DNA from: Rhodamnia argentea
Lineage: Eukaryota; Streptophyta; Magnoliopsida; Myrtales; Myrtaceae
Assembly: GCF_020921035.1 (NCBI RefSeq)
Contig: NC_063152.1
Span: forward strand, 26,535,903-26,599,902
DNA: 64,000 bases
Direction: 5' to 3'
Of this stretch, positions 4,437 through 53,795 are shown piece by piece (the first letter of the stretch is position 1; each line of letters starts with the position of its first letter). The notes under the pieces are model-generated. The model saw only the letters and a program-made list of their open reading frames with translations, was not told where the DNA came from and ran no database searches. Position numbers and translations under genes: made by a program.

Positions 4437-4558
4437 GTCGTGCAAAAATGGCCATTTCGTCGGCCTCTTACAATCAATACAGAGAAGTCAGCTGCCAGTC
4501 GTGCAAAAATGGCCATTTCGTCGGCCTCTTACAATCAATACAGAGAAGTCAGCTGCCA
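4437..4558. repeat. Perfect 61-bp tandem duplication
   Basis: Two adjacent copies of a 61-bp unit, 4437-4497 and 4498-4558, are identical base for base as read. The unit starts GTCGTGCAAAAATGG and ends GTCAGCTGCCA. Complete identity implies a recent duplication or a collapsed or expanded assembly artefact. It lies outside any gene I can support. Confidence 0.95.
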
Positions 4559-5039
4559 AGATGAGCTATGGAGATTTCATTCTATTTTCAGTTCTACGAA
4601 ACTGGACACAACAAAAATGTTGCTTTCGACCATCTCAGTCCCCAAGTGACGATGCAGAATCGTCTACGTAAGATCTGCATGAAGACAGTCTAAACTGTGC
4701 TAATCATCGGTTAGCCATACTTACGTCAGGAATTAGACTAATCTGTTTTTATTTTATTTTATATATTTCCTTTTTATTGCGTCAGTGTCCATCGTTGCCA
4801 CTAGCGCTCTTAAGGGAAGACAAACGCTCAACTCCACGAAATTAAAGAATGCAGTCTCCAGCAAATCCTAAGGAAGTTCAGTTTTGTAAGGACTCAGAGA
4901 CGATGGTTCCTAATAAAGCGTAATACTGATCACATTCATGTTGATGGCAGATTCACCGCAGCCCAAATCTACAGGAAAGGGAGGCGAGGAATAATACAGA
5001 GGGAACTTTTCTTTCTTCGGATCAAGATAGCAATACTCA

Positions 5040-8000: not shown

Positions 8001-8419
8001 TCTGTGCACCACTATCCAGTTCGCCGACTGCAAAACCACGAACAAACGGCTTCACCACCCCGAATCCCTCTCTCTCTCGAAAAGATCTACGGATACATGT
8101 AGCAAACACCAAAGAGAAAAAGAGAACAAGAAAACGGCGAACCTTGCATCGCTCGTCCCGCGTGTTGGGAGGCGATCCTTCGAGAGCGGTCTTGAGAGCC
8201 TCCACCGGCTTCCACCTGCACCCGACGAACCGACACGAAGAAGGCGAGGGTAAGCTAACTAAAATCAAGCCGCGAATCGCCGGAAGAAAGCAGAGAGGGA
8301 TCGAGCGTGGCGGAAGCTTACTGCTTGAGCAAGCTCTCGATCTTGCGAGACTTGTGCTCGATTCTGGTGATGATCGCCTCCGCGTTGTCCGCTTCCACGA
8401 ACTCGTCCGTCGCCGACAT
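5040..8419 (-). CDS. ARPC5: ARP2/3 complex subunit 5 (ARPC5/p16)
   Basis: Four exons on the minus strand: 8322-8419, 8143-8215, 7927-8027 and 5040-5175, with GT-AG introns and matching phases, encode 135 residues, close to the usual plant length. Exon 1 gives EFVEADNAEAIITRIE, exon 2 VEALKTALEGSPPNTRDE, exon 3 NWIVVHRAIMAIKDLD, and exon 4 YLYRGLSTGDRPTCDQCL ending in NTV. These match the plant ARPC5 family over the whole length. The protein is the smallest subunit of the seven-member ARP2/3 complex, which nucleates branched actin filaments and in plants affects cell shape such as trichomes and pavement cells. The start at 8419 lies just before the conserved acidic N-terminus. Intron 3 is long (5176-7926). 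A GA-rich 5' leader (CT-rich on the plus strand, about 8458-8483) lies upstream. No defects are visible. Confidence 0.96.
5176..7926 (-). other. Long third intron of ARPC5
   Basis: The 2.75 kb between ARPC5 exons 3 and 4 contains no recognisable coding sequence, transposon termini or RNA gene. Short open frames on both strands (for example near 5629-5835, 6170-6415 and 7729-7944) have no recognisable domains. It is AT-rich, as usual for plant introns. Confidence 0.8.
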
Positions 8420-8961
8420 TCCGGCGAAGCGGTCGCCGGAGGAATCAGAAGTGAAAATCCCTCTCTCTCGCTCTCTCTCTCTCCTTCCTTTTTCCTTCAC
8501 AACATATACGACGAAATTGTTCTTAGGGGGACTGTATAATGGTTGGAATTTTATTAAAATAGCCACATAAAGATGTCCATACAAAATTTTGTCTAATTAA
8601 AACACGACATGACGACATACTTATTAATCATCCGTTTCTTTTGTAAAACAAATACTATCGCTTGTATCGTTTACAAAAATATATAAATAAAACAAAAATT
8701 TAGGCATAAATTATCGTTAATAATGGATTTCGTCGCCTAACTTTTCCTAGTTAACGAAATACTTCACTTTTATGTACTAAAGCCCATGCATTGGGTCCCT
8801 CTAACTGTTTTGAGTTAATGAAATACTTCACTTTTTTACAACAAAAAAAAATGAACAAAGGGTTTGTAACAAAGAGCTAAAAACATCATAATATTTGGAA
8901 TTTTTAAATCACGACAATATACAATGATTTACAACAATATATGGTAATTAAGAACAAAAAA

Positions 8962-9733
8962 GGCTCCATTTATTTCGCGAAAAATGAGTCGTCTTTGAAA
9001 AATATTTTTCGGAAAGTCAATTTTCAAGAAAATGACTATATTTTTCTTTGTTTGGTTGAAATATGAAAAAGACTTTGAAAATATTTTATGTTATTTGATA
9101 TGAAAAATTGGATTTAATTTTCCTCCATGCACATCATTTAATTTTTTTTTGTTTTTCTTTTCATGTTTTACTTTAAAAAAAATAAAAATTTTTAATGTTT
9201 TAATTATTTATCTTTTTTTTTTTTTTTTTATGTTTTTTTTTTTTTTTTTGCTATTACTGTTTTTTGCCTATCGCCGGCCATCATCATGGCCGACGAACAA
9301 TCACGAGCGAGGTCAACAACGGCTCACTTGGCCTCGCATTGGAGGCCGACAACAATTTGCCTAGACTCGCTTGTGGCTAGGGCCAACGATTGGCTGAATG
9401 AGAAGAAGGGGTAAGAAAAAACATAAAAATAAAAAAATAAAAAATAAAGAAAAAGAGAAAATTTAGAAAAATAAATTTTTGAATTGTGAAAAATAAATTA
9501 AAACGAAAAGGAAAGTAAAAATAATAATTAAAAAGAAAGAAGATGCGAAGAGAGGAAGAAAGAAAGATGAAGAAAATATTTTCCTCTTCTCAAAAGAAAA
9601 AAAAAATCATTTTTGAAGGAGTTTTTTTTATTGGAGGAAAAAAAATTTCTGGATTGGCTAATGATTCGCAAAAAATTAGCCAGTCCAGAAATTTTTTTTC
9701 GAAAAGTTATTTTTCGCGAAACAAACGGAGGAC
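8962..9733. mobile_element. AT-armed TIR element (non-autonomous, MITE-like)
   Basis: The left end GGCTCCATTTATTTCGCG and the reverse complement of the right end, CCTCCGTTTGTTTCGCG, form inverted termini, and both continue as AAAAAT. The arms are AT-rich, with long T runs on the left and A-rich purine DNA on the right. The centre (about 9270-9400) is a GC-rich block. No transposase is visible, so the element is non-autonomous. A related element lies at 40832-41538 in the opposite orientation. The superfamily is not assigned because I do not see a convincing target duplication. Confidence 0.6.
9637..9699. repeat. Near-perfect hairpin inside the TIR element
   Basis: An arm containing AATTTCTGGATTGGCTAAT is followed after a short loop by ATTAGCCAGTCCAGAAATT, giving about 25 bp of pairing including the flanking A and T runs, with one mismatch. 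It may be a second, internal inverted repeat or the end of a nested element. Confidence 0.8.
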
Positions 9734-10014
9734 GTCATAAATTTGAGTTTTGTTTGATTACAACAATAAGGAGTTACCACATTCTGTTACAACCAAAAGT
9801 AAACCATGGTCAATTTGGACTTTTTCTTTTTCAAAATTACGACGGCATAGTTGAAACTAAAATCACAATATCGCAAATTTTCGATTTACAGAGTGGTTCA
9901 ATGATCTGCCGTAACAAGGAGCAAAGCATTGTATAACCAAATTTATCTTTTATCTTTTAAATTTCTATGGCTCACGAATGTTTATGATATTACATTGCAA
10001 TCAAGTACAAAGCG

Positions 10015-10037
10015 GGGTTGGACCAAAAAAAAAAAAA
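10015..10037 (+). repeat. Micro-insertion: TTGGACC head plus poly(A), flanked by direct repeat
   Basis: The sequence GGGTTGGACC followed by about 14 A residues sits between two copies of AGTACAAAGCG (10004-10014 and 10038-10048). The direct repeat flanking an A-tailed insert is the signature of LINE-type target-primed reverse transcription, but almost no element body is present. Confidence 0.75.
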
Positions 10038-10281
10038 AGTACAAAGCGTGGTAATTTTTGTTTTATCTAATCATGACAGTTACAAATGTTTAGGATGGTT
10101 TGTCATGACAAGAAGAATACTTTGTAAATTCGGACATATTATAATTACGATAGATTACAAAGAGTCACGACATTTCGTTATAGCCAAGAGCAAAGCATCA
10201 TAAATTTTGGATTGTTATAAATTTGACAATTTACAAATTGATTTGCCCTGAAGGACAAGACCTCCTAATTTTGTATGTTTT

Positions 10282-10440
10282 TGTAACGACTCGATCCGAT
10301 GAGTATAGGAAGTGATCGTCGAGGTTAGTGGGTATGGACAAGAAGCGGCTCCTAGCAAGCTTCTAAGATGACAAAGGGGGTAGGAATGAACCGAACTGTA
10401 CACCGAATCGAACTGTGCATCAAATAGAAAGAGAACGATT
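10282..10440 (+). mobile_element. LTR fragment related to the solo LTR at 34951
   Basis: It starts TGTAACGACTCGATCC and shares a block with 34951-35110: a GGAAGTGATCGTCG-like segment, then GCGGCTCCTAGCAAGCTTCT and GGGGGTAGGAATGAA. It looks like the 5' part of an old LTR of the same family. No internal retroelement sequence is attached, and only one end is present. Confidence 0.5.

Positions 10441-10445
<5 letters not shown>

Positions 10446-10478
<33 letters not shown>
10446..10478. repeat. (AT)n microsatellite
   Basis: An uninterrupted run of about 16 AT dinucleotides lies directly after the LTR fragment. Confidence 0.95.
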
Positions 10479-10482
<4 letters not shown>

Positions 10483-10597
10483 TTTTTAAAACATCTTTAA
10501 ATTTGACTTTTATTGTGTTAGACATCCATTTTCTAGTGGTCGGACTTGCATTTGCTAGTGCGTAAAACATTGTGAGTTTCACTTTGAATGTTTCGAA

Positions 10598-12272
10598 TAA
10601 GGGTGAGCAAAAAAATCATGATCCACCTAAATCAGACTGTACCTAACCAGCTCATTTTGAATGCTAACGAGCGGGTACGGTCTTGTTCTCGATTTCAATT
10701 TTCTGAAACCTACGGGTACCAATTCAATTCTCAATTTTAGGTGAGAACCATCCAACCAACTCAATCGGACCGGTCCTTTTATAAAATACAAATGTATATT
10801 CTTTTAATTTGAGTGCATAACTTTGGATATGCCTTAATTCATGAAGTATTGAACATAGAAAAATTGCAGTTACACAACGAGAATGTGACATGTTGGTTTA
10901 GGCTTGGCTAGATAGCTGCACTAAAGTGGATTTGTGCCTTTTGAAATAACTTTTGCAAATATTGAAATGCTTCCTTGCATATTGAAATTTTTTTATTTGG
11001 CAATGGTACTAAGGGGGTGCATGACAACCACTCTACTTCTCTATTCTTATTCCAAACTTATTTCTAGAACAAGTTTGGAACAGAAACTCGTTTAGTAACG
11101 TAATTCTATTTTTCTATTTTTTAAACAAAAATTTGTTCCATAAATAGATTTGGAAGGGAAATTAGAAGCAAAAAATTTTAGCTTCTCGGAGAAATAGAAA
11201 TCATAAATAATAACCCCTCACTTTTTCTCAGATACTTACCGTTGCCGAATGCCACCCGCCCTCGCCTCCCCACCGGTCGTTGCCACCCACCACCGGCCTC
11301 CGCCACCCATCGTTGGCCGCCGCCGACCACCGCCTACCGCAAACCACCGCCCACCGCCATCCTCCGCTGGATGCCTCAACCATCGCTAGTAGCTATCGAC
11401 CTTTGCCGGCCACCGCTAACCACTGTCCTTGATCGCCAACCTCCGTTGGCAACCAATCATCCCCCCCCACCTCACTTGCCTTCGACCTCCGCCGACTACC
11501 TCCACTCTCGGACGTGACCATCCCCCCCCGCCGCCACCAACCACTACCCACCACCGACCTTCGTCGCCACAAACCACTGTCCTCGGTTGCCCACCGCAAC
11601 TGCCGTTGACTACCACCTGCCTCGCCATTGCCCCCTACCTCATTGCCAACCCCGTCGACCATCGCTTGCCGCCAACCACCGCCCACCACCACCCTTTGTT
11701 GGTTACCGTAACCATCGCCGACCATCACCCCTTGAGACCTTCACCGTTTTGCCGCCCGCCACGCTTGCCACCGGAGTAAAAAATAAATAATAATTTTTTA
11801 TTTTTGAATAGTAATTAATAATTTCTAGAAGTAGAAGTTTTCAACTGTTATCAAACGAATTTATATTTCAAGATTAGAAATTTTATGTCGTTATCAAACA
11901 TAGTTTTTTGCTTAAAAACTCATCCAAAAACAGAAATAGAAAAATTCATTTCTAGCCAGAAATCTATTTTTGAAACATAATGGTTATCATACACCCCCTC
12001 AATCATTATCCCCATCGTTATCTTGCATATTGAAAATTTTCCTCCTTCAACCGCTAGGGACTCGTTCCCTTTTCTTTTTTAATTGCTATTAGTGCTCGAT
12101 AGGACCGTGCACGGGATCTAACAAAAAATCGGATCGGACCGATGGTTCGATTCTCGGGTGAATCCATGGAACAAGCGGGAGGTTCGCAGTTTGCATTTTG
12201 CGAAACCGGTCCCTAGCGAGCGGTTTTTGGTTCTAAGGTGAGAACCAACCATCTTGGAACCGATCACCCCTA
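10598..12272. mobile_element. hAT-type non-autonomous element with 8-bp target duplication, interrupted by a nested element
   Basis: The left end TAAGGGTGAGCA and the reverse complement of the right end, TAGGGGTGATCGG, are hAT-like termini. They are flanked by GTTTCGAA (10590-10597) and GTTTTGAA (12273-12280), an 8-bp target duplication with one mismatch, the length expected of hAT transposons. The interior is rich in GGACCG and GGTTC motifs, as in the MITE at 48724-49290. A second element (about 11007-11999) sits inside, so the original length was about 680 bp. No transposase is present. Confidence 0.65.
11007..11999. mobile_element. Nested TIR element with a GC-rich, proline-codon-like core
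   Basis: The left terminus GGGGGTGCATGACAACCACT and the reverse complement of the right terminus, GGGGGTGTATGATAACCATT, are 20-bp inverted repeats with four mismatches. Partial inverted similarity continues inward (for example TTTCTAGAA and TTCTATTTTT). The centre, about 11235-11775, is strikingly GC-rich and made of CCACC/CCGCC-type repeats. Open frames on both strands there translate to Pro/Thr/His-rich or Gly/Trp-rich low complexity. I interpret them as composition effects, possibly from an ancient captured fragment, not as genes. Confidence 0.6.
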
Positions 12273-12839
12273 GTTTTGAACATCCAAGACTTGTGTGAAA
12301 ATGCGCAACCGATTACAACTAGCTCAAAATTCAACGGTTAGGATTTTGTTATCTCAATCTAATGGCTAACATTTCTAGAATGCAATAAAATATTATACCC
12401 GAGATATTTCTAGCAGCAAGGCCTCAAAATTTTTTAGTCTCTTTGTAAATTGAGTAATTTAAAAAATATCTCATTCAAAATAATCATTTATATAACTTAT
12501 GAATGCAAAACGATCGAAAATTTCATCATCTATGAAAATGATTAGACATAAATTATTGTGGATAATTAAGAGATTTTTATCGACTAATTATTTTAAGTAA
12601 TATCGATAATTATTTTTAAGAAAATATATTTCAAATCATTTATTTTTTGAAAAACAAATGGAGAAACAGTTCCGTTTATTTTACCAAAAACATTTTTCTC
12701 ATTTTTTGGTATTTGGATCGTTTAAGAAAGTAAGTCAACATAAAATCTATGCTTAAATTTAAGAAAATGAATATATCCTTGAAAATAAAAAAATATTTTC
12801 CAAAATATGGCTAGATTATGAAGTTTGGACCAAGAACTA

Positions 12840-13750
12840 TGAACTTGAGCATAGAAAGCCCAACACTAGTTCTCGAGTCCCCGATGCTAGCGCCCGGATC
12901 CATCGAGGCTTAGCTTGAGGTCGGTGTTGGTGATCAATAAACCGGCACTCGGGCCCGGGTCCACAAAGTTGAGGTGGGAACTCGGCACCCATGCCTATCT
13001 CCTTGGCACTCGTAAGCAAGTCAAGAAAGGCCAGGCTGGGGCCTCGAGTGCTTAGTCTTGGGTCCTCGATGTTCGAGCTCGAGCCCAATTCCATCATGGC
13101 TAAGGAGCAGGACCCCAGCCCCTATGTCAAGCCCATCGAGGTTGTGCTCAAGTCCCTAGCGTCCCAGTTTGTGTCCATCGGAGCCAAGCTTGGGACGCGG
13201 TGCTCATGCAAGGGTTGCCGACGCCTAAGCCCGGATCCACCAAGGCCGGGCTCGGTACCCAAGTCCCCGTGCCTGGATGCCTTGAGCTCAAGCCTAGATC
13301 CATTGAGGCTACGGTTCAGAACCCCGTTGCTAAGGCTAGGGCACAGGCAATGGGGTATCAAGCTCAAGTCGAGATACTAGGGTCCAAGGCCTGGTCGTCG
13401 AGAACCCGAGCATGAGTGCTAGCATCCTTGCCCCAACATTGATGGACTAGGGCTTGATTGTCGAGGACTCAAGCTTGAGCACTAAGTCCCAAGCTAGTCT
13501 TTGTGGCCCTAGGTACTGAGGTCACGTAATTAGCTTTTGTGGACTAGGTCCCAAGTGCCAAGAATCAACGCACGAGCGCTGGAGACATGGCCATAAGCAC
13601 CAAGGCCTCGGGCCTACCTCTATGGACTTGGTATCAGAGCTTGTGCTCTTGCTCGGGACCTAAGTGCCCATGCCTAAGTCCACGACGCCCAGGTCGAGGT
13701 TCATAGAGGTTGGATCTCATATCTTGGTGCCTGTGTTTGGATCCTCAACT
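12840..13750. repeat. GC-rich degenerate tandem-like repeat block
   Basis: A compositional island in AT-rich DNA. It is built from diverged recurrences of phrases such as GATCCATCGAGGC, GATCCACCAAGGC, GATCCATTGAGGC, GAGCTCGAGCCC and AAGCTTGGGAC. The unit length is irregular by eye. Open frames on both strands are by-products of base composition and show no domain. Confidence 0.55.
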
Positions 13751-14019
13751 GTCCATGCACAAGTTATTAATGCCCAATAGTTTAATGTATTTAGGATAAT
13801 CAAATCAAATTTGTATTTCCGAATGAAGATAAATATTTTTAGTTTTTTTTTCATGTTTTAGGCAAAATATAAAAAATTATTGTCATTTTTCTGGAAATTT
13901 TATTTTTCAATAATTTAATATTTTTATGAAATAAACGGAATCTTAATTTTTTTTTCTCATAGTATGAGAATAGTTTTTCTCTTTTCCCTCTTGGCCTTTT
14001 TTCCTTTATTTTTTTGGTT

Positions 14020-15065
14020 CAATATAAAATATACAAAAAAAACCCTCCAACTTTTACTTTTGTCTCAAGTCTATCCAAAATTTTTACTTATGTTCAAATT
14101 CTACCGGGCTAGTATAAAATTTTTTTACAATTTTAGCATATGTCCCAATTATATCCATTTTTTTTTGTTCGATAAAAAACCTTCAATTTTTACTTTTATT
14201 TCAATTCTACCACCATTAGCCCTCTATCAATAATTACCATTAATTAATCATACATGGCATTTTCACATCGTTAATGAATTATACCTTAGCAAAGTTGACA
14301 TAAAAAAATACTCAAATTTCTCTTTTGTTGTTTGCTTCCCTATATGTTGTCGAGAGATACAAAGTCACTCAAGACGGTGCTATTCGTATTCTTTTCGTTA
14401 CTTAACAGCCCAAAGAATGGCAAGACATAGAGATATTTGGACTAAGGATCTAAAATTTAGCATATGTCCCAATTATATCCAAAACTTTTTTTATCTCATA
14501 AAAAAACTGTAATTTTTACTTTCATCCAAATTCTACCACTGTTAGCCTCCATCCATAATCACCATTAGTTAATCTTACGTTGTATTTCCATGTCGTTAAT
14601 GAATTACACCTTAGTAGAGTTGATATGAAAAAACCCTCGAACTTTTCTTCTGTTGTTTGCTTCCCTACATATTGCTGGGAAATACAGAGTTACTATGACA
14701 ACGGTTTTCGTACTCTTTTCGGCACTCAACAGCCTAAAAAATTGCTAAATATGGAGATCTTTGGACGAATAATCTAAAATCTTGTCATTCTTAAAACCTA
14801 GTATTTATAAATTTTGAAGATTAGTTAGTAAGTTCGAAGAGAAAATTCGAGCTAATTAGCTAACAATGATTTTGGATGGAAGGTTGACGGTGGTAGAATT
14901 GTGATAAAAGTAAGGATTTTTCTTGAGACAACAAAAGTTTCGGATATAATTGGGATAGATGCTAAAGAAGTTAAGGATTTTTCTTGGTATTAGATCGGCA
15001 TAATTGATACAAAAGTAAAAGTTGAGGGATTTTTTATAGAATAAAATTTTAAATATAATTTTCAT
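14020..15065. mobile_element. Inverted-repeat element carrying a 323-bp direct duplication
   Basis: Near 14030-14100 the plus strand reads CCCTCCAACTTTTACTTTTG with related phrases. Near 15015-15040 the same phrases occur in reverse complement (CAAAAGTAAAAGTTGAGGG). Between these arms lie two direct copies of a 323-bp unit (14138-14460 and 14461 to about 14775), both starting CATATGTCCCAATTATATCC. It is consistent with a fold-back or MITE-like repeat. No coding sequence is visible. Confidence 0.5.
14138..14775. repeat. Two-copy direct repeat, unit 323 bp
   Basis: Both copies start CATATGTCCCAATTATATCC and share TGTTGTTTGCTTCCCTA, TCGTTAATGAATTA and CAACAGCC/TAACAGCC blocks in the same order, with many substitutions. 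The divergence indicates an old duplication, unlike the identical 61-bp duplication at 4437. Confidence 0.8.
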
Positions 15066-15470
15066 AAATATTAAAATTAGAGTTTTTTTTTTTTTGGTAT
15101 TAGGCCCTTGTTTCTCTCAATTCTTAAATCGTACGACTCAATTGGACCCTACTATAGTTCTTTGTAGAATGATGCAAACCAAAGTACGAATTGGATAAAG
15201 AATCCGGTCAACAGTGACTGAGCATGTTTGATTCAGGCTAGTTTGGTCCTTTTGGACCGAACGGCCACGCTCGTGGCCACTTTTGAAGATCTGGCCCCTA
15301 CCCTTGTCTTTACTTTACCTTGGCTTCAAAGTCTTCCTTCCTTCACCATCTCCACTTCTTCTGCTGCTGCTTCTTCTTCTTCTTCTTCTTCATCACCTAC
15401 TTCAGCATCACACCCTCCCAACACCCACTTGCGCACAGCTCAAGCTCAAAGCTTTTTCACTCGCTCGACA

Positions 15471-17890
15471 ATGGCGGCTCACACGTCACACCCCAACCCA
15501 CGACTCCCACTCCGGAGCCTCAACCCGCCGAGCAAGCACAAGCCCACCAATTCCTCCCCATTCTCGCTCTCCCGCTTCCTCTTCAAGGCTCTCTTCCTCG
15601 TCTTCCTCCTCCTCGCCGTCCCTCTCTTCCCTTCTCAAGCTCCCGCCTTTCTCGACCACCGGGTCTTCACCGAGTTCTGGGAGCTCCTCCACCTCCTCTT
15701 CATCGGCGTCGCCGTGTCGTACGGCCTGTTCAGCCGCAGGAACCTGGACGGCGACGACGAGCCCGAGAATGCCGAGAGGCACGCATCGTGGAGCGCGTCG
15801 CGCGTGCGCGATTTCTTGCCCATTTTCGAAGACGGGTATGAGTTCTCCTGCGGGTCCGACGGGAAGATTCAGAGACCGGTGCAGGATGCGTGGAAATGCG
15901 ACTCTGCGCACTACTCTCAAGGTGAGTCCGAGATTGCTTTCAGTGACGAATGTGATTTTGCTAATGAGAAACAGATAAACGTTAGATCTTTGAGCTCTGA
16001 GAATGGTGGTAATGTGGTTAGTAGCTGGAGTTCTCAGTGTTTTCAGTGTGAGCCCATGGTTGTGGTGGCTCAGCCAAACTTTAATCTTGGTGATGAATAT
16101 TGCAAGCCCTTGGGATTGCCTGTTAGGAGTCTGAGATCACGAACTGGGGAGGGTAGTAGGCGAAAATCGAGAAATGGAGGTGGATCTGGTCCTGTTTCTG
16201 GTTCAGGGCACTCTTCAATTAGCTTCGATAGCCGTATCAATGGGGATTTTGGTGAAGTGGGTCCGGTTAATTTGGAGAAGAAGTTTGAGGGAACTGTGCC
16301 TGTCCCTTCGGATTCGTCAATACCGTGGCGGTCGAGGTCCGGGAGGACGGAGGTCAGAGATAGTTTTGGTAATGTTGGGAAGAACCTACATGCGAGGCAT
16401 ATCTCAGTTGAGGAGTCTCAGTCTAGGCATCACAGATCAAGGTCTTTAAGATCCAACGGGTCTTTAACTTCGCATACAGGTTCAGTGTCATCTTCCCCTT
16501 CACCTGACAAGCTCTCCTCACATTCCGCTTCTTTGGACTTGCCAAAAATGGAGGACCCTTGGAACAAGGAGGACCGATTCTGTTCTTCACTTGCCGCTGC
16601 GCCACTTGATGCTTACGGTTCACTGGATGTGTCTGGCCATGAGAAGGGCATGGGGAGAAACTTGACAGATAAAGATGGTTATGGTGAAGATGTAATACGT
16701 GGTTCGCCTGACATCAAAAGCACATTCTATTCATCTTCGATGAACAGGAAAGCTTCACCAGACATGTCGCATTCTCAGAAATACGAGAAGATTCTGCCCG
16801 AAAACTTAAATGATGAGCGGATGGATTTAAGCGAGAAGAGAAGTCAGAAATGTTCGAGTGATAAACTTCCAGCTCGTGGATCTCATTCCCGTAGCTATAC
16901 TAGTATTGAAAAGTTAAATGATGAGCGGATGGATTTGAGCGAGAAGAAAATCGGGAATTCTCGGGTGATAAACTTCCGCCACGTGGATCTCATTCCCGTA
17001 GCTATACTAGTATTGAAAAATTCAATGATGAGCAGATGGATTTCAGTAAGAAGAGATATGAGGAATTCTTGGGTGGTAACCTTCCACCACTCGGATCTCA
17101 TTCTCGTAGCTATACTGCTATCAAAAAGTTAAACGGCGAGCAGATGGATTTGGGCGAGAAGAGTAGTCAGGAATTCTCGGGTGGTAAACTTCCGCCGCGT
17201 GGATCTCATTCTCGTAGCTATACCACTATAGATCCTTTTCTTGATGGGGATGGCCAGAGAAAACTGATGGGTGATTATGAGGACCTGGGGCAGATCAGCA
17301 GAGAGAATTTATCACATAGAAGAGGGTTGCCTCAGGGTTCTTTGAAGTTAGATGTCAAACCGCGTGACAAGAACATCAAAGGTATGCTGAGAGGAAAATC
17401 AGTCAGAACATTCAGAGCGAGCAGACGCACAGAAACAGTTGATAAATTTGAAGAGAACTGTCGAAATTTCATAGACGACAAGGTGGGAATGATGCATGAA
17501 AAGTCAGACCAGTTTCATCTGACAAAGGAAGGAAACAAAACTGAAGGTTCTCATAGCTGCTTCGGTAGCGCAGGGGAACCAAGTCTGGGAAATTCCAGTC
17601 CTGTCCTGCAGCAAGGGTTTGCTGATTGTGCAAATGGCGAAAACAATCATTGTGAGAACAAACGGGCGAACTCTGGAGAGGAGTGGATGGCTGAGGCTGA
17701 AAATCCCCGAAGGACCTCGGATGAAGAAGCCGTGTCTGGTTCTTTCAGTGACATGGGAACTGAAGCTAATGAGGTCGATAAGAAGGCCGGGGAATTCATT
17801 GCCAAGTTCAGGGAACAGATTAGGCTTCAAAAGATGGCATCCATCGATGGATCGGTCAGCATAGACATCAGCGAAGACGATTATAGGTAA
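15471..17890 (+). CDS. DUF761-type plant membrane protein, reading frame broken once
   Basis: The likely start is ATG 15471 (MAAHTSHPN), although an open frame extends upstream. About residues 30-75 contain two hydrophobic segments (FKALFLVFLLLAVPLFP and FWELLHLLFIGVAVSYGLF), followed by FSRRN, typical of the DUF4408/DUF761 family. A long Ser/Arg-rich, probably disordered region follows. The C-terminus has the DUF761 motif KAGEFIAKFREQIRLQKM near 17785-17835, and the stop is at 17888-17890. Between them is a four-unit 108-bp repeat. Unit 2 is 107 bp long, so the first frame runs off to a stop at 17132 while the DUF761 end is in another frame. The break may be a real allele, a pseudogenisation step or a consensus error. 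The family's function is unknown; fibre-expressed and stress-related members exist. Single-exon structure is inferred. Confidence 0.8.
16806..17236 (+). repeat. Four-unit coding minisatellite (108, 107, 108, 108 bp)
   Basis: Units start at 16806, 16914, 17021 and 17129, each with TTAAATGATGAGCGG or a close variant, and each encodes a 36-residue block ending in GSHSRSYT. Unit 2 has lost one base around 16945-16955 compared with its neighbours, which shifts the frame. The other three units are 108 bp and keep frame. Confidence 0.9.
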
Positions 17891-20800
17891 AGATTAAAAA
17901 TTTGTACTGCTACGGAAGTTAATCTAACCAGGTGCATATGCATTTCATAGCGATCTCCCCAACATTTTTTTTGCCTTGTTTCACATGCTTCATTGCCATT
18001 TCTTTTGCCGACCGGGTGTAGTGCCTGTGATTTGAACCATATTGGTCCGTCTATATAGAAGTAGATACGTTCCTATTCTTAGGTATGCTTCTTGCAATCG
18101 TCTCCGTTCTGAATCAGCTGTATTAAGCGCGGAACTGGCCAGAGTTCTTTAGTTAACTTGCAAGTCTGAGAGCCGGAATCCTTCCGGTCCACAACCACGG
18201 TCCTCAGCTCATCTACTACAATTTACGTTCGACGCCTTGTGAAAGATCCGTCGGCACAAGAACTTCGCCAAAACCTGCAGAATGTTTCCTCCCCCTCTCA
18301 TTTGATGGTCTACCTAGATCTTACTTGCGAATGATCTCCTCACCCATGTTCTTGTCTGTCTCTTTTCGCTAATCAGCATTTCTTCGGTAAAGCTCAGGTC
18401 AAGTGATTAGCCGAGCTGTAAGGTGAACGGGTCATTGCGCTTGCGCCTCAAGAATGTAAGAAAAAATCCCCACAAAAGACAGGTTCGAAAGAGTATCATC
18501 GTGACCGAGGATCAGTTATTTCCGAGGACTCCATTAATGGTAAATTCAAGTTCTGGACGGACTTCTGGTATGACGAGTATGAACATGGCCTCGACAAGTT
18601 GGAAGACAACTCTCGATCCATCGTTCTTGCCATGAAACAAGCAAAAGCTTCAAACGCTGTACTCGATCCCCGGTGATTCCACCGACGTGTAGGAATTGAA
18701 AGGGACATGTTGGGGACAAGTTTCTCATGAAGTTGGACTTTTGTGAATTAAAAATCATCTCTTTTCTAGCTTGACATTTGACTAAATCCATCCATCCACA
18801 CGAATTTTTCAGTAACTAATGCCATGGATTGGATATCCAACCACCCGCCCGTATTGTTGGCCTCCTGTTGATCTCTGCTTCTTGTCCTCACAATCTCCTC
18901 GAATCAACAATTTATCCGATCAATTTATTCGTGCGAATTCAATTTATCCGATCAATTTTAGTCGGAAATCGCCGACATGGACGTCAGTCGTTCCACGTGG
19001 CATAGTCGGTATTGATGTGGTTAAATTTTAACTGTATGTTACTATATTGTGTGATTATTTATTTATTTTTCTTTTTGTTTTTTTTTTTTTTCCACTCCCT
19101 TCTTCTTCCTCTAGCTAGTTGCTATGCCTTGGCGACCAGCCAAAGGTGAGGGTAATTAAAAGAGCGAGGCTTGACCTTGCCCTCTCCACTAGCCGGCGAG
19201 GACGACCTCATCAGCCCTTGCCTCCGGTTGTCTGCCGCGGTCCCCCTACTGGCTGGACAAAGAAGGAAGAGAATTAAAAAAACAAGGGAAAGGGAAAGGG
19301 AAAGGGAAAGAGAATTAGAGGAATAAAAAATAATTTCAAAAAATGTTGAAGTATTATTAAAATTGTCCACGGCAACATGGGTCGAGTCACATAAGACGTT
19401 CAACGTCCATGTCCGTGATTTTTTAATTGGTTTGACACCAATGCAAAAAGTTTATGACTTAATTGACACAAAAAAAGATTTATGACTGAATTGCCACAAT
19501 CGCAATACATTTATTACTTTTTTCTTTATCATTTTCCCCTTCATTTAGTTTCAAATACTACTAACTCTAGTTTATCTTTAGAAGATTTTGTTTGAGTTAT
19601 CTCATTAACCCATCACCATCATGCAACGTAAGATCTTGCATCTTCAAAACTGAACATTTTCATGAAAATAAAAACATACCCGAATGCGTAGATTACTTCT
19701 AAATCATTAATCTATTCCTAGATTCTCGGGCTTGTTTCGGTTCGGTGAATGCTCTCTTTATCCAATGAGCGGTTGAACCTTCGACGTCGCTTCCCCTTTC
19801 TCTTGTATCGATGCTGTGTGCCGATTACTTAGTGTCGCCGATTCTATCATTTATTCAATCATCGGCCACAATCTACACTCCTATGCCAACGTGTGTTTTA
19901 GGCGTATTGGACTCTCGTGTCGATGACGCTCCAGGGGCCTTCCTGCCTGCTTAGGCCCAGACCGATTTTGCCCTAATAAGCGGGCCAATTTGATGATATA
20001 ATCTTGTGATTTGGCTAGATCTTTCAACGGACTTTCCCAATGATTTTTGGTATTTTTTCCCACAAAGCACAATGCCTGTCATTTTCGTAAATCAAAATGT
20101 CCCGACCATATTAGCGGACTGGACAGCTAGATTTTGGCAAAAAAAGACAAGAAAAAAAAAAAATTGGACAGCCGGATTATAAGGTAGGTAAAAACTAAAA
20201 ACCTTGAAAAATATCAAAAAGAGAGATGAATTAATTTCACAACACTACCTACCGCCATTGCCTTCATTGTGGAGGATTTTATTTTCCCCCAAAATACATT
20301 CTATTTTTTTTTAATTAACTAAATTACACCTAACATATAAGTATTTTCCGAATTAAGCTCGCCCTTATTAAGCAAACCCGTCCCAATATAGTAGTACTAA
20401 TACGGGTTTCTTGTTTTTTTTTTTCCGGAAATGAATATGATTAATTTAAAAGAAGAAAAAAGGAAAATTAATTGGTGCCAGCTTTCATTAGGCTCAAATC
20501 ACCTACCAACTCCCCAGTAGTCTTCTCAAATCTCCATCCTAGAAAATTTGTTCGGTACGAGGGCCTTGTCCATTGCTCTTCCTCGCTCTTCACTCCTTTC
20601 TCATCGCACTGTCGGCATCAAAGGTTTGTCAATGGACCCTCTCTCTAATCCTGTGAATTTTGTGTTTAAATCTCCAAGTGTGTGGCGATGAGGTTGCGTC
20701 GACTCACGCCGTGCGTGCTAAAAATTTGATGTTTTTTCCTGTGTTTGAAACAAAGAGAGTGGTAAAGAAATGGAACCCAGATCGACGCGTCGGTGCCCCC

Positions 20801-35650: not shown

Positions 35651-35908
35651 ATCATGCACTGATGTTTAAACCTTCGATCTGCCAAGATCTGAGATAGAAA
35701 ATATCTATAAAAGTAAAAATGCGACCGTCATGACTTGATTCAAGGCCTTGAGCGAGAAAACGAAAGGGAAGAAATCATTACAATTCCGTTTCCAAATCTC
35801 CAGATATAGAAAGTATAATTTATACAATGCACGCATGTTCACAAACAATGACTGAAAATCATCGCACAAAACCTCTCAGTTTCGTCCATTTCAAGTCCCA
35901 CTCAAGTG

Positions 35909-35931
35909 TTGGACCAAACAAAAAAAAAAAA
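35909..35931 (+). repeat. Micro-insertion in copy A with 16-bp target duplication and an empty site in copy B
   Basis: TTGGACCAAAC plus poly(A) sits between two identical copies of AAGTCCCACTCAAGTG (35893-35908 and 35932-35947). The paralogous place in copy B (about 49670-49690) has the target only once (GAGTCCCACTCTATTG) and no insert. Confidence 0.9.
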
Positions 35932-35996
35932 AAGTCCCACTCAAGTGGAACGACAGGACGTGACCATGCTCGCCGGGATCGGGGTCGCCGGCCGAG

Positions 35997-36596
35997 CTAG
36001 TCAAGTCCTCCTCCCCTCTTTGGATCCGGCGAGCCGTTCTCAGACTCAGGCGAGCAGTGCCGCTTCCGAGTGACCCTCACCGGCTCCACCTCGTCGCAAC
36101 CGACCAAGTGAGGGAAATTCAGCCTGGCCTTGGCCCCGCGCATCGCGAATGCGGCCCGGTCATAAGCCAACGCGGCGTCCTGCGGCGTCTCGTAGGTCCC
36201 GAGCCACCTCCTTGCGCCCTTCTTCTTCAGGTCCCGAATCTCCGCTGCGTACTTCCCCCACGGCCGTCTCCGCACTCCCCGAAAGTGACACCCTCCGGGC
36301 AGTGCCTCATTCTCATTGACATCATCGCAGTCAACGAGCGACTGCTCGTTCGACGAGCCGGGCGATTCCAAACCCACGCCGTCGAAATCACCCGCTTCGA
36401 ACGACGTTGTTGTATCCGGCGATGACGACGATGCGTCAAAGCTTGGATCTGGGCAATGGAACCCGACACTCTCGGCGATTTTCGCCAGGGTTTCAAAGTC
36501 GTCGTGGTCGTCGTCGTCGTCGCTGAGAAGATGGTGGCGAATGCACTCTAAAAGAGCAGCATCCGAGCCTGATATCGTTGAACTTGGTGGGAACAT
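35997..36596 (-). CDS. AP2/ERF transcription factor, group IX (copy A)
   Basis: A single-exon gene of 199 residues. The start at 36596 (MFPPSST) is preferred to the longer frame because the paralogue at 49687-50364 starts at the matching place and a TATA-like element lies about 85 bp upstream. The N-terminal motif [13 protein letters not shown] is the CMIX-type activation motif of ERF1A/ERF2-like proteins, followed by an acidic run. The AP2 domain covers about residues 105-165: [17 protein letters not shown], then WLGTYET and [25 protein letters not shown] marks the ERF class, which binds GCC-box promoters in ethylene and defence responses. Compared with copy B the C-terminus ends early: just after PDPK the sequence is two bases shorter, and the frame stops at LD, losing the tail present in B. 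No intron is visible. Confidence 0.93.
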
Positions 36597-36677
36597 GTCG
36601 AGCCAGAATAGCAGAGAATAATGCGAGGATAGGAACTGATTAGGCTTTTGGGTGGCGAGAGTCGACGCTTGACGGGT

Positions 36678-36692
36678 ATATACATATAATCG
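36678..36692 (-). promoter_or_regulatory. TATA-like element of ERF copy A
   Basis: On the minus strand the sequence reads TATATGTATATACCC, about 85 bases upstream of the ERF start codon at 36596. The copy B gene has an AT-repeat in the same position. Confidence 0.5.
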
Positions 36693-36699
36693 CATTTAT

Positions 36700-43260: not shown

Positions 43261-43771
43261 TGGTGGCTTTAATTCTATTTATTTGTCATAAATGAACTGG
43301 ATATATACCTTTACTCGATGTGTGGGTCATTGCGCTAGAAGGTCATGGTCGATGAAGACAAAATGTGGCTCAATTTTTCTTGTTCAAGATAATGGTCCTT
43401 GCTGCTTATGATAGTTTCAAGAGGTACTCTTGTTGATCTCTTACAATTTCCAAGTATAAATACTTCTATTATAAAATACAAGGGGAAACCTACATCTCAG
43501 GTGCCGACCATCATCATAATTTTATTTCATTTACCATTTAGTATTGCCCAAATATTCACCAATAACTGGCCGTCGCATTTCAAAGTTTTCAGGCTTGAAA
43601 TCTCGGCATGCCTGCTGGTGTTTTTTGAACTTGAATTGGAGCACGAAGATCATGACATTGTAAATACACATGCAGACATTTCATGCCGCAAAAGGTTAAC
43701 AACGTCGTTGAATTTTGCAGGAGCTGCTTTAAGTAAGTGATAAAAAGTGGAGATTAATTAAATTAGCATCT

Positions 43772-43796
43772 GTTGACCAAAAAAAAAAAAAATTAG
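43772..43796 (+). repeat. Micro-insertion in copy A (GTTGACC plus poly(A)), empty site in copy B
   Basis: GTTGACC followed by about 14 A residues lies between ATTAGCATCT repeats (43762-43771 and 43797-43806; the longer flanks match imperfectly). Copy B at about 54293-54315 has the target once (AGTAGCATCTCCAATAATG) without an insert. Confidence 0.8.
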
Positions 43797-45307
43797 ATTA
43801 GCATCTCTAATTATGTCACAGATACAGCCAAAGAAACTCATGAACCATGTGTTAGATTTTCGACGTTGATAAAATAGAAGGGGCAAGTCAAGAAAATGAT
43901 TTTTGGTGGGTGCATGATTAATTGTCGTTGAATTATTATCCTTCTCATTTGAGCAATATTTCAGTAGTTTGACCTTCCATTCTCCTTCGATGTCATTGGT
44001 CTTTCGGTCATCCCATCTTTGCTTCCTATTCCATATCTAGATGCAAGGTGCAAACGTTTCAGTGGCTTCATTTTATAATCCGGGTGCATGGACACAAAGA
44101 CCGTCTACTTGAAGGCTCGTGGAACATCCTGCATGTTTCATAAATTGATTGACTCCAGACCTTTGGCTTGTATAGGTAACTCTGACTCGCAATTTGCACA
44201 CGGTTTGAAGTCTCACAGAAGACCCTGCAAACTTCATGAATTGGTTCAATCCAGGCCTTTAACATGTCCATGTGACCTTGATCTAGAGCAATTTGCGTGC
44301 AATTTGTGAGATTCCAACGAATTGCCTCTAGTTTTTCAACCGAAAATCACCTGACGCCCACAATCATCCCTGCCAACTCTAGGTTTGAGGCTCTAACTTA
44401 GAGAAAAGGATCTTGAGTAACGTTAGGAGAGTTATAATCTACTATTAACATTTCTTGGATAAGAACATTGGGAATATCCAACATTCACCAATTTGCACGC
44501 TAACTTCAATTTTTTGGCGTCCATCTATTTCTAGTTTGGATCCTTGGTTGCATCCTATAACCAACATATTAAAATGGTAGCATAATAACCCTTGAAGAAT
44601 CAAAATTATTAGACGGCACACAATAATGTACCCACATTTGGCGCCTAAACTTTTAAAACTCGATCAATTTTGGTTATTCAGTGACTTATGTTTTGGTTGA
44701 TTATTCGGTGACTCGACTCATTGGTAAATCCTATGTGGAATTATTTCAAGGATAATGATTCCATATGGCCCAACGGAGTCATCAATCCTTGATAGACAAA
44801 TAAACGGCGTCTTGATAGCGTAATCGAGCCCCCAATTAAATTGAGAAATTTGGTAAAAATTACTTCTCAAACCAAACCCTAGCCCCAAATTTCAGTTTTA
44901 ACCTTTGTGGATTGTTCGATGGTGGAGCAGCCTAAGTGTAGGAAGATCTCAGCCACGTACTATCCCTAGATTTGGCAAACATGTGGGGTTGGATTTAGAT
45001 GGATACAAAATGGGTCCGACTTAAATCGACTCATTTAATTTATATTGACCTATTAATATGTAATCAAATTTCAGCGACCTAAACCGGATTCCGTACTCAA
45101 GCCATACCCAACATGACCCATGTTCTTCTTCTTGGTCTTCTTGAATTTTGTGACGGGGATTAGTGGAGTAGGAGAAGACTGTCAAACATTTGTGTTTTTG
45201 GGTGATGTCAAGCAATCGCAAAACTTCATTGGACTATATTAGATGGCAGAATGTTAGGTTGCGTGGGATGTTGCTCCTATATAGTCTGATGTTTTTATTG
45301 GAGGGAG

Positions 45308-45852: not shown

Positions 45853-46005
45853 TGATAACAGAGTAGGAAGTCCCGAGTCCAAATCTTCTCAAAACATACT
45901 CCCAATCTTTAAACTTAGGCTAGAGTCAAATTTAAATGTGAACATCTTTATTTTGTGAAGTCTCAAGTGTTTTGCATTTAAAGAGAGCTGAAATACGCGA
46001 AGCGC

Positions 46006-46027
46006 TTCTTACCAAAAAAAAAAAAAA
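46006..46027 (+). repeat. Micro-insertion in copy A (TTCTTACC plus poly(A)), empty site in copy B
   Basis: TTCTTACC followed by a run of A sits between two identical copies of AAATACGCGAAGCGC (45991-46005 and 46028-46042). In copy B near 63385-63405 the related sequence (TTTGTGAATAGCAAGATCTAG) is uninterrupted. Confidence 0.88.
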
Positions 46028-47029
46028 AAATACGCGAAGCGCAAGATCTCAATTAAATACAAAACAAAATGTAAAAGCAAATTTAGAGAAACCAAATTAT
46101 TATATTAGATTGTACAACAGTTTTTCTTTAATTATAAATTAACACTAAGGTAGCACGCATTGCTGACTCAGAGCTCTTTGTTTTATTGGGCGGTCTGGAT
46201 TCCCAATGAAGGAGATCTTAACCTATTCACCCACTTCAAGAACATCCGTAACTAATAATACTCCAGAATTAATACATTGAATTACGAAAAACATCGCATG
46301 CACAAAATAATTTAATTTCATATATAAGGAAGGCAAGAAGCACGAAGATAAATCTTCACTATTAAAACAATTAAATGTCCTTTTCTTTTTTAAGTAAATA
46401 TTCGCTTTTTTTTCCTGTGAATTTTGATTACGACAATTTAAATTAATTATATGAATTAAAAGGAAAAGGAGAATAATCCCAAACACATTGAAAGAAGATC
46501 CTAAAGGATGTCATGTCGTTGGGTAAAGCCTTTTCAATCTTTAATGCATAGATAGTCAGATACATTCGCCGCAATCTATGTACGAAATAATTGACTCTTG
46601 CTCTACATGCAACAGATCACTTTTGCTTTGAAAAGATATGTGGTTTAACGCCAAAACGATTTTCGTGATATATGTTTTTGTAAATTTTACGACAATTATA
46701 TGGTGGAAATAAATATTTTCAAATTATCTAAGTCAATTATGGTTCAAAATATCTATATATCTATCTATACGTGTCTTTAAATCTTAATATACGTATATGT
46801 TACTATAAAGGGAAAAGTTGGCTTCGTCCCTTGCGATACATTTGTTACTGTACAGTAAAAATGTATCTGTCATTCCATCTTGCACACTCGCAGCAAAACT
46901 CGAGATTTGAAAAGATGCTACTTAAAGATGATGATTGCATAAAAGAAAACGACCAATCATCCGTGTCAATTAAAAAAGAAAAGACAGTCCATGATCAAGT
47001 CAATTTTATTGGAATATGATATAATAGAT

Positions 47030-49290: not shown

Positions 49291-49686
49291 GTGAATGTGT
49301 ATGCAAATGCGACAGATAGACATTTGAGTGTAACATGACTAATAACATGTGAGATGACGTGTCGGATGACCTGACTTCTCATGGCCAATGTTAATGTGTT
49401 AATGGCATCAGCGAATGCATTTACAGAAGACTTAATGATGGGTGCGTGGCGCATGAGAGCAACTTTATCCTTGATGCGGCGGAGCGTGGAAGATCGTGAG
49501 GGCGCGTGCAGCGGTGAAATGCGGCATAATTTAACGATTTGGCTCGTCGTGTGGGGTAGCAAGTTTGATGGTGGTGTTAGCGTTTCGAAAGAAGCAACAA
49601 AATGTACCGACTCAACGCTTATGAGCAATGACTAAAAATCATCACACAAAACCTGACATCTTTCTTTTTTAATTTCGAGTCCCACT

Positions 49687-50364
49687 CTATTGAAACGACA
49701 GCACATAGCCATTGAGCTCGTCGGGGTCGCTGGCCAACCCAGTCAAATCCTCCTTTCTCCACTTCGGATCCGGCGAGCCGCTCTCAGCGTCAGGCGAGCG
49801 GTGCTGCTTCCGAGTCACCCTCACTGGCTCTGCCTCGTCGCAGCTGATCAGGTGCGGGAAATTCAACCGGGCCTTGGCCCCGCGCATAGCGAAGGCAGCC
49901 CGGTCGTAAGCCAGCGCAGCCTCCCGCGGCGTCTCGTAGGTCCCAAGCCACCTCCTGGCACCATTCTTCTTCGGGTCCCGAATCTCTGCCGCATATGTCC
50001 CCCACGGCCGTCTCCTCACTCCCCGGTAGCGTGACCCTCCGTGCAGTGCCTCATTCACTTCAACGTCACCGTGATCCTCCATGACCGGCTGCTCATTCAA
50101 CGAACTGGGTGATTTGGACCCGACGGCGTCTTTCATGGGGTCAGGATAGATGTCGACGTTGTCATCGTCTTCATTCGCTTCGAACGACAATGTCGTCTCC
50201 GGAGACGAGGACATGTGGAAACTTGAATCCGGGCAATCGAATGGAACATTTCGGGCGATTTTCGTCAGGGTTTCGAAGTCATCATCGTCATCGAGAAGAT
50301 GCTGGCGGATACACTCTAAAAGAGCAGCATCTGTATCTGATATTGCTGAGCTTGCTGCGTACAT
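49687..50364 (-). CDS. AP2/ERF transcription factor, group IX (copy B)
   Basis: A single-exon gene of 225 residues starting at 50364 (MYAASSA). The N-terminal motif [18 protein letters not shown] matches copy A and is the CMIX-type motif. The AP2 domain covers about residues 111-170: [10 protein letters not shown], then [20 protein letters not shown] and [20 protein letters not shown] basic linker and an acidic C-terminus ([20 protein letters not shown]) follow; this tail is missing from copy A. Odd points: the usual lysine of [10 protein letters not shown] is threonine here ([10 protein letters not shown]), and both paralogues have [10 protein letters not shown] where family members usually have GARVWLG. 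A nuclear GCC-box-binding regulator of ethylene or defence genes is expected from the family. An AT-repeat TATA region lies upstream at about 50454-50471. Confidence 0.94.
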
Positions 50365-51518: not shown

Positions 51519-52407
51519 AATGGTTATTTTTCCCCTGAAAAAAGAAAAAGGGCTGTAAATAACTTCCAAAACCCTTTTAATTTATATCTGCATGCACTGC
51601 GTTTGGAATTATTTACACATTTCTCTGAGACCCATGCTTAGAAACTGAACATGACAAATGAATTTTTTCCGTTTTCCTTCGTTGGACTTGGTTTTTGGGC
51701 CTAGCTAAAGGTTTTCGATTGCGTCAATGTAGTGATATAATCTTTCTATTAGATCGTTTATGCCCTTTCAATTGCAGATGAAGAGTATCTAGGGTTTTGG
51801 ATGTGCAGGGGAGTCGTTCATCAATGTCGTCGAAATAGATACTCTTGCGTTGGATCTGAACTTTTGATTAAACAAATTTGCGATCTGATGTGTCATTTAT
51901 TTTTGCATGTCGTTGTGACACTTAGTTAATTGGAGGAAATTTTAGATACTGTTCTCACCTATTGCGCCAAAATTTGCATCCCTATTTTTAAAAGCGCCGT
52001 TTTAATTTTTTCCTGAATTTTTTGAAAATTCACTTTGAATTACATTCGTTATCCTTTACTCTTGTTTACTTTATAAAATAATGCTATCGCAAGTCACCGA
52101 AACTTTTCAATATATGCAATTTCATTTTTTTACTCTCCTTTTCTCGTAAAATCGAGTCATTTAAAAGATATATATTTGTCTATTTACATTAGATATGCAG
52201 CTAAAAACCTTAATTGAAATGTTGAGGCGATCGTTAAATCTAAATAATCATGAATATTTAGCATATAACGGGGAAAGAATTTCGAAGATTGCGAAGTGTA
52301 GATTTCAAAACTAGGGATACACAGTGTAATCGAGCAAAAATTAAGGATGAATTTTGTAATTCTCCGAAAGTAATTTCCTTTTCTTGGTCCAAAAGTGAAA
52401 AATGATC

Positions 52408-52425
52408 AGTCTTTTTTTTTTGGTC
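52408..52425 (-). repeat. Micro-insertion in copy B, reverse orientation (GACC plus poly(A))
   Basis: On the plus strand, AGTC plus 11 T plus GGTC lies between two copies of AAAATGATC (52399-52407 and 52426-52434). In reverse it reads GACC followed by poly(A), the same head as the plus-strand micro-insertions. I could not find a clear equivalent in copy A, which differs here. Confidence 0.6.
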
Positions 52426-53795
52426 AAAATGATCGATTCATGAGGTTAAATTGGTTCTCATCCCTTATAATGTGATTGATTAGTTCTTTGCTATATTGAG
52501 TTTATATAGCAGTTTGGCCCCACGTTGAAGTAAGACGATTCCACACCCATGAGTGTTTCATTATCTAGTCAATTAACTATACAATATTAATTAGAGTATC
52601 CATTTATAACTTTAATTTTCCAACGAATTGCCAGAATAAAAGACAGAAAGTGATTTACCGGAGTAGGGTCTACGAGCCTCCTTATAGGCGAGTAGTGGGG
52701 CAGCAATAATGAGGATCAAAGTTGATTAATCATAAGAATCTAGACATAATTAACCACATGCCGCATACATCTGTATATGATATCCTTTTATTGTAAATAA
52801 TCTATAACAAAGTCCAAAGAAAGCATGTGCTCCTATAAATCATGTGGGGTGATCCCTATACACTCTATTCATATTGTAATCCATTTATTAGTTGTAAGTG
52901 TATAACAAATTTGAAATGTCACGGGTTTCAAAGATGAAATCACATGCTTATATATTTCGTGTGGCGTGATGTAATGTACATTTTGTCTTTATCGTAAAGG
53001 ACGATGTATCGAGTTTATTCATAAAAAAAGTTCCTTTATTTCAAGTTGAGTTAGTATTCAATTATCATGTGATCCTCATTCTCCATAACTAAAGTCTATA
53101 CATCAATCATTGATTCAACCTCACCTCTTCCCCATAGGAATAAAATATCCTCTCTAACAACGGCAAGTATGTGCAATTTAGAGTGTTTTTGTTTCGTCTA
53201 TGAAAATTTTCATGAAAAGGTTTTTCGGACGTGCACGAGGGATTAACTTTCACTCACTCACTCTCAAAGTTTTAAAGAAATCAACCGGCTAGAGATTCAG
53301 ATGAGGGAAATTTCCTTCAACTAAGGATGTTGTAGAATAGTCTTTTTGTAAGCATGTCGCGGAAAATACATCTGTGGTCTTGAAAAGGAAGATCAACGTA
53401 GGTACTTAAACCTTGTACGCATGTAATGGCAAATATTTCTAAGATCAGGTATGTCTATTTTCCTCTATCAGGTTCACAACTTGCTACAATAGAATGCTTT
53501 TACAATGTGTATTTACTAAAGGAAGCTATTAGTCTGACAGTATTGTCGGTTATTTTTTACCACACGATCTCTCAATTAATAAGTGTTTTATGCAAAACAC
53601 GCGATGATGGTGTGTGGTTCTATGGTTGAGATTGTACTGTCTCTAATAGTACTGTCGGTGAAGCATTTCTCATTACTAAACTCAATTGTCATAAATGAAA
53701 AAAGGATTTTTCTATCCAGCTCCACAAGCTCTAATGTGAAGTTCAGAAATTTAATTTGTCATAAGTGAACTCGATATATACCATTGTGCCAAAAG

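Follow-up and report, generated by a model that had tools for sequence, protein, structure and literature searches.

We found that the genome of Rhodamnia argentea (346.7 Mb) harbors a class of very short, A-tailed insertions, which very probably represent insertions of resident L1-type long interspersed nuclear elements (LINEs) that were aborted 6 to 10 nucleotides (nt) into the element during target-primed reverse transcription. The starting point was a micro-insert at positions 35893 to 35947 of a 64-kb stretch of contig C3, referred to here as the window. For this site, the initial annotation had put forward target-primed retroposition that left virtually none of the element body, a proposal supported by target duplications, A tails, and heads (the few nucleotides in front of the A run) that equal LINE 3′ ends. 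We refer to such insertions as stubs.

Direct reading of the plus strand resolved the insert into the 7-nt head TTGGACC (35909 to 35915) and an A tail of AAAC plus A12 (35916 to 35931), enclosed by two perfect copies of the 16-bp target duplication AAGTCCCACTCAAGTG (35893 to 35908 and 35932 to 35947), exactly as had been claimed. The 16-mer occurs at two places in the window, both flanking the insert, and the filled junction occurs a single time in the genome. Insert and duplication lie 50 to 104 bp beyond the 3′ end of the reading frame of an AP2/ERF gene (232-amino-acid [aa] open reading frame on the minus strand, 35997 to 36695; AP2 domain match with an E value of 3.5e-13). Elsewhere in the window, a diverged paralogue of the ERF gene carries the target once, as GAGTCCCACTCTATTG (49677 to 49692, plus strand), without the insert and with alignable flanks on both sides; the empty paralogous site that had been reported is therefore genuine, and this one paralogue provides the unfilled target expected of an L1-type insertion. 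The two targets are identical at 13 of 16 positions, as would be expected from the divergence of the two ERF copies. The nick context at the insert is C|AA, unlike the commoner T|AA described below.

The head of this insert is identical to the 7 nt that immediately precede the A tail in L052, a resident LINE of the RNase-H type, so the comparison of heads with LINE 3′ ends of the same genome, which the initial annotation had suggested, yielded a source. zf-RVT (PF13966) domains are common in the genome (150 scored of 907 candidates; genome counts are lower bounds), and the 1.5 kb downstream of zf-RVT was read at four LINEs. In L052, zf-RVT is part of a 1,391-aa open frame with RVT_3 (RNase-H-like) at its C terminus, and the element ends in TTCTTGTTTGGACC(A)16, ~850 nt past zf-RVT. 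L053, which also has a C-terminal RVT_3, ends in CTTTTTCCGACC(A)7, ~825 nt past zf-RVT, and L041, a degraded LINE with 32% identity to L052 (E value of 3.8e-9), has TTGTTGACC(A)7 behind it. When up to two mismatches were allowed, the L052 end (14 nt plus A5) was matched at 117 places versus 11 for the control. This end is located 839 to 840 nt downstream of zf-RVT at three LINEs, namely, L052 itself and, with one mismatch and placed by position search, C1:36470534 and C8:20250243; ~0.006 such pairs were expected by chance (100 of the 117 places, 150 domains). As a separate observation, eighteen listed copies within two mismatches of TTCTTGTTTGGACCAAAAA were located at C5:28.5-30.0 Mb, all on the plus strand and ~50 to 200 kb apart; this region is a duplicated array carrying one LINE 3′ end.

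A second LINE group, with a shorter zf-RVT match, ends in CTTACCTTACC(A)n. In its member L049, this end lies ~2.78 kb downstream of zf-RVT. Among 100 listed places of the 565 with CTTACCTTACC, nine have a zf-RVT domain 552 to 2,780 nt upstream on their own strand; opposite-strand pairs numbered 0, and 0.09 pairs were expected (100 of the 565 places, 150 domains). All nine paired domains are of the short type, the pairs cover 7 of the 19 short-type matches on C1 to C4, and the same nine were obtained with 48 and with all 150 domains. For L055, the CTTACCTTACC end was absent within 1.5 kb and was found ~2.78 kb downstream, while for L054 it was found neither in the 1.5 kb read downstream nor in the pairing with 100 of the 565 places. 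A first pairing of CTTACC+A9 with zf-RVT used 22 of 100 listed places; C1:18787112 carries CTTACC+A9 1,631 nt downstream of zf-RVT, without the longer word. A further pairing with zf-RVT, at C5:22291237, came from a small set of mostly VGGACC+A9 places picked by eye and is a lead only, not a test.

Taken over all stubs, the heads TTGGACC, TTTCCGACC, TTGACC, GTTGACC, and CCTTACC equal LINE ends, and GTACCTTACC, TTTGACC, and TTCTTACC match them except for the first one or two bases. The heads TTTTTGCCCC, TCCGGCC, and CTTTCGATC look related; among the LINEs read, none has such an end. Identity with a LINE 3′ end was found by reading L052, L053, and L041, at two more LINEs by position, and for the second group at 9 of 100 listed places. 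The initial annotation had suspected that one LINE or short interspersed nuclear element (SINE) RNA supplied a common 3′ end; the heads do equal or nearly equal resident LINE ends, but these represent several subfamilies of LINEs, with GACC or TTACC as their ends, and not a single family. Template use of a separate very short RNA, or a new element, is not needed once the heads equal LINE 3′ ends. U6 small nuclear RNA (snRNA) as the source was dropped when the LINE ends were found; TTTGGACCA is contained in the reverse complement of what we take to be the 3′ end of U6 snRNA. The heads end in ACC(A), which brings to mind the 3′-CCA ends of transfer RNAs (tRNAs) as a template, but we know of no plant tRNA end that fits TTGGACCA, and no tRNA genes were found by ARAGORN in the 64-kb window. 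The label "L1-type" is based on zf-RVT, RVT_3, the A tail, and the general status of A-tailed LINEs of flowering plants, which are assigned to the L1 clade in PMC3747384.

A genome-wide excess of head plus A run over control had been predicted, and it was found. With the reversed word as the control for each count, TTGGACC+A9 occurred at 497 places (control, 9), TTTCGACC+A9 at 615 (control, 5), CTTACC+A9 at 1,194 (control, 26), and ACC+A12 at 6,826 (control, 1,395). The three exact words sum to ~2,300 candidates (497 + 615 + 1,194), with the TTGGACC set being the only one sampled for duplications. We conclude that the stub class is real.

The first thirty TTGGACC+A9 loci on contig C1 were read. 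The search word fixes the minimum at a 7-nt head and A9, and shorter heads are visible only via the VTGGACC and VGGACC counts given below. A duplication was present in 26 of the 30 loci, with lengths of 8 to 20 bp and a mode of 16 bp; these are upper bounds, as they include any base that the target has in common with the head or the A run. Twenty-two of the 26 duplications begin with AA, and in 16 of those a T precedes, in agreement with the T|AA nick site of L1-type insertions. The duplication abuts TTGGACC exactly in 10 loci, overlaps its first one or two bases in 6, and is separated from it by one base in 7 (T in four, A in two, and C in one), giving a gap of at most one base in 23 of the 26; in the other three (L003, L016, and L031), three to five bases intervene. 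Accordingly, the body measured 8 nt or less in 23 loci and 10 to 12 nt in 3. The A runs ranged from 9 nt, the minimum that the search admitted, to 21 nt. An explanation by 5′-junction microhomology was set aside, since one or two head bases are shared with the target in 6 of 26 loci, near the one-in-four rate expected for a single base. L021 (C1:10388151) and L022 (C1:10579057) are copies of each other, in near-identical segments ~190 kb apart; TTGGACC(A)n is present in both and lacks a clear duplication. About 100 bp from this site, L021 contains the stub GTACCTTACC(A)15, which is flanked by an 18-bp duplication.

The position of the stop was sharply defined, 7 to 8 nt upstream of the tail in most TTGGACC loci read. 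The word that is one base shorter, VTGGACC+A9, was counted 39 times (control, 13), and the word that is two bases longer, GTTTGGACC+A9, was counted 50 times (control, 0), which places TTGGACC (497) about tenfold above both. VGGACC+A9 reached 159 (control, 38), many of which are CGGACC and may mark a further subfamily. One duplicated cluster on C5 holds ~10 of the 50 GTTTGGACC places, and the four on C1 (L017, L019, L020, and L027) are stubs that take G or GT from the target; therefore, at least 9 nt of the exact L052 end is kept at 0 of the 59 C1 places listed for TTGGACC+A9, 30 of which were read. A smooth truncation curve, with the stubs as its short end, would predict near-equal counts for GTTTGGACC and TTGGACC, whereas GTTTGGACC is about 10 times rarer. 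Moreover, the A run varies twofold and the head hardly at all, and it thus seems to be the template position, rather than the length of the complementary DNA (cDNA), that sets the stop. In all sequence read, 30 insertions combined a LINE-like tail with an exact duplication of at least 10 bp, and the body was 11 nt or shorter in 28 of them; 21 of the 30 came from the TTGGACC search, and the nine others comprised seven stubs and two long insertions. The latter are worth describing. At L050:1213-1455, two adjacent insertions occupy a single target: CCTTACC(A)8 comes first along the sequence, followed by a body of 164 nt that ends in TTTACC(A)8, and AACAACATAGCATGAAAG is present in three copies. 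On the minus strand of L025, a 198-nt body ending in AGACC(A)7 is flanked by a 17-bp duplication and is possibly a longer LINE-tail insertion or a SINE.

Stubs were also recovered without reference to any head. The scanned set of 264 kb consisted of the window and 20 stretches of 10 kb from contig C1, which were chosen to be evenly spaced and are not a random draw. Under a strict rule (A8 or more, duplication score of 11 or more, body of 20 nt or less), 10 of 235 A-runs qualified, one of which (L033) is low-complexity and probably spurious, versus 1 of 235 in the reversed sequence, a real insert (L035) read backwards, and 0 of 389 in five Markov shuffles, which preserve dinucleotides on average only. 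An exact-repeat rule gave 7 of 235 versus 0 in the control. The 200 kb of C1 contained five stubs with LINE-like heads (L032, L035, L037, L048, and L050), which extrapolates to ~8,700 stubs genome-wide (95% Poisson range of 2,800 to 20,000; from 200 kb of one contig); the window was excluded from this estimate, since the finding had selected it.

In the window, the unguided scans recovered three of the four further events around 10015, 43772, 46006, and 52408 that had been put forward as a recurrent class. These plus-strand stubs are located at 10003 to 10048 (two copies of AAGTACAAAGCG around (GGG)TTGGACC and A14), at 43756 to 43806 (head GTTGACC, which is also how the degraded L041 LINE ends; two 16-bp target copies that differ at one position), and at 45991 to 46042 (AAATACGCGAAGCGC duplication; head TTCTTACC, with the final 6 nt as in the second LINE group). 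The fourth, on the minus strand at 52399 to 52434, is a probable but weaker stub with a 9-bp duplication (GATCATTTT), the head GACC, A10, and a 4-nt gap; it was seen by eye and reported by no scan. The window also contains a perfect 61-bp tandem duplication in two copies (4437 to 4558) and a 325-bp tandem duplication with 78% matches (14132 to 14780).

Anatomy, duplications, one empty site, the match of the heads with LINE 3′ ends, the genome-wide excess, and the sharp 5′ end are directly supported, and we infer the following order of enzymatic steps. The endonuclease of a resident L1-type LINE would nick the target, mostly at T|AA, and the nicked T end would prime on the poly(A) tail of the LINE RNA. 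The reverse transcriptase would then copy the tail and the final 6 to 10 nt of the element and halt, and the short cDNA would be sealed in, leaving the duplication of ~16 bp. We further infer that the stop would be a property of the template or of early elongation, for instance, of an enzyme failing to clear the 3′ end of its RNA; candidate causes may be the U-rich stretch upstream of GACC, its pairing with the tail, or an undisplaced protein on the 3′ end. A terminal hairpin as the cause is not claimed. When the last 20 nt were folded, a 3- to 4-bp stem formed in all three RNase-H-type ends, with −2.7 (L052), −1.0 (L053), and −0.3 (L041) kcal/mol, and the hairpins of L053 and L041 depend on folding these 20 nt by themselves. 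In the second group, the L049 end formed no hairpin without the tail (−0.1 kcal/mol), and with the tail its U run pairs with the A's (−3.5 kcal/mol). These small structures beside the tail resemble the "stringent" plant L1 3′ hairpin of Ohshima in location; however, the latter, a monocot structure described in PMC3747384, reaches −10.8 or −12.6 kcal/mol for L1s and has other conserved letters, and the one second-group end that was folded has no hairpin without its tail.

The main rival to an aborted LINE insertion is a template that was already short, i.e., a 3′ LINE RNA fragment cut 7 to 8 nt before the tail and used in trans by the LINE proteins. Such a fragment would give the fixed 5′ end directly and would agree with a near-constant head next to a varying A run; however, it requires an unknown cleavage and, in several LINE families that end differently, a stable RNA made up of 7 to 8 nt and the tail, and we consider it unlikely. 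More doubtful still is an origin from truncated copies of a SINE sharing the LINE 3′ end. Pairs of SINEs and LINEs with common 3′ ends exist in maize, according to PMC2774510 and PMC3747384, and the 164-nt L050 insertion ends in TTTACC(A)8, but the sequence read contains the L050 body only once (no genome-wide SINE search was made), and the body does not exceed 12 nt in any of the 26 TTGGACC loci with a duplication. In place of an RNA polymerase III promoter and a body of tens to hundreds of nucleotides, as in a SINE, these loci have the minimal bodies described above. Replication slippage or tandem-repeat decay, which the initial annotation had itself named as a rival, would explain an A run flanked by direct repeats as an A-rich spacer left between two repeats. 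It is contradicted by the recurrence of the same 7-nt head at hundreds of places (497 versus 9), by heads that equal LINE ends, and by the single target in the paralogue, and its probability is minimal. Equally minimal is that of ordinary processed pseudogenes of any messenger RNA, cut very short; these share similar machinery, A tails, and duplications, but their heads should vary as mRNA ends do, whereas a few LINE-end words were found in large excess.

Several observations weigh against an abortive origin from LINEs, or narrow its basis. Among the thirty loci, four (L021, L022, L026, and L028) have no duplication, the duplications at L023 and L024 are just 8 to 9 bp long, 1 to 5 odd bases stand between the A run and the second copy at L018, L019, L024, and L030, and the 10- to 12-nt bodies of L003, L016, and L031 contain T runs and might represent a variant LINE end of which a longer piece was copied. 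Truncation is less sharply placed in the CTTACC group, where 269 of 1,194 places keep 11 nt or more, and the 164- and 198-nt bodies demonstrate that longer insertions exist. The TTTCGACC (615) and CTTACC (1,194) sets lie outside the duplication sampling, and none of the LINEs read ends exactly in TTTCGACC. Of the 150 zf-RVT domains, 55 of which are of the longer type, 3 pair with the L052 end among 100 of its 117 places. None of the LINE copies was followed through from its 5′ end to its 3′ end, so that a full-length insertion bracketed by its own duplication was not observed. Finally, a looser scanning rule (A7, score of 9, longer bodies), run over all sequence read up to that point, gave a much weaker contrast (41 versus 16 in the reversed sequence).

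LINE 5′ truncation is usually spread broadly along the element. The stubs share with 5′-truncated insertions of L1-clade LINEs the A tail, the ~16-bp duplication, the T|AA target, the 3′ end of a resident LINE, and the loss of the 5′ part; they differ in that the main product of one family measures 7 to 8 nt and has a near-fixed 5′ end. Truncated LINE copies are ordinary, and this near-fixed main product is what appears to be new; no report of a fixed-length LINE stub class was found in the open-licence literature with a few search terms. A related case is found in Lepidoptera, where microsatellite families are seeded by truncated RTE elements that, according to PMC2887409, combine LINE 3′ ends, a very short 3′ untranslated region, flanking duplications, and scattered simple repeats. 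The stubs described here, unlike these elements, retain no coding sequence.

Repeat finders need an alignable body, and insertions of 7 nt plus an A run would therefore probably be missed by them. Each stub records an insertion together with its orientation, and its empty site can be recognized, which makes it suitable as a marker, and stubs are a source of A-tracts. A near-fixed stop also makes LINE 5′ truncation, a long-standing question, directly testable, with the template position being known and short enough to alter. For the resident L1-type LINEs of this genome, we see an even chance that a strong stop 7 to 8 nt into the element makes them act mainly as scatterers of thousands of stubs, which possibly outnumber the LINEs and seed A-tracts near genes.
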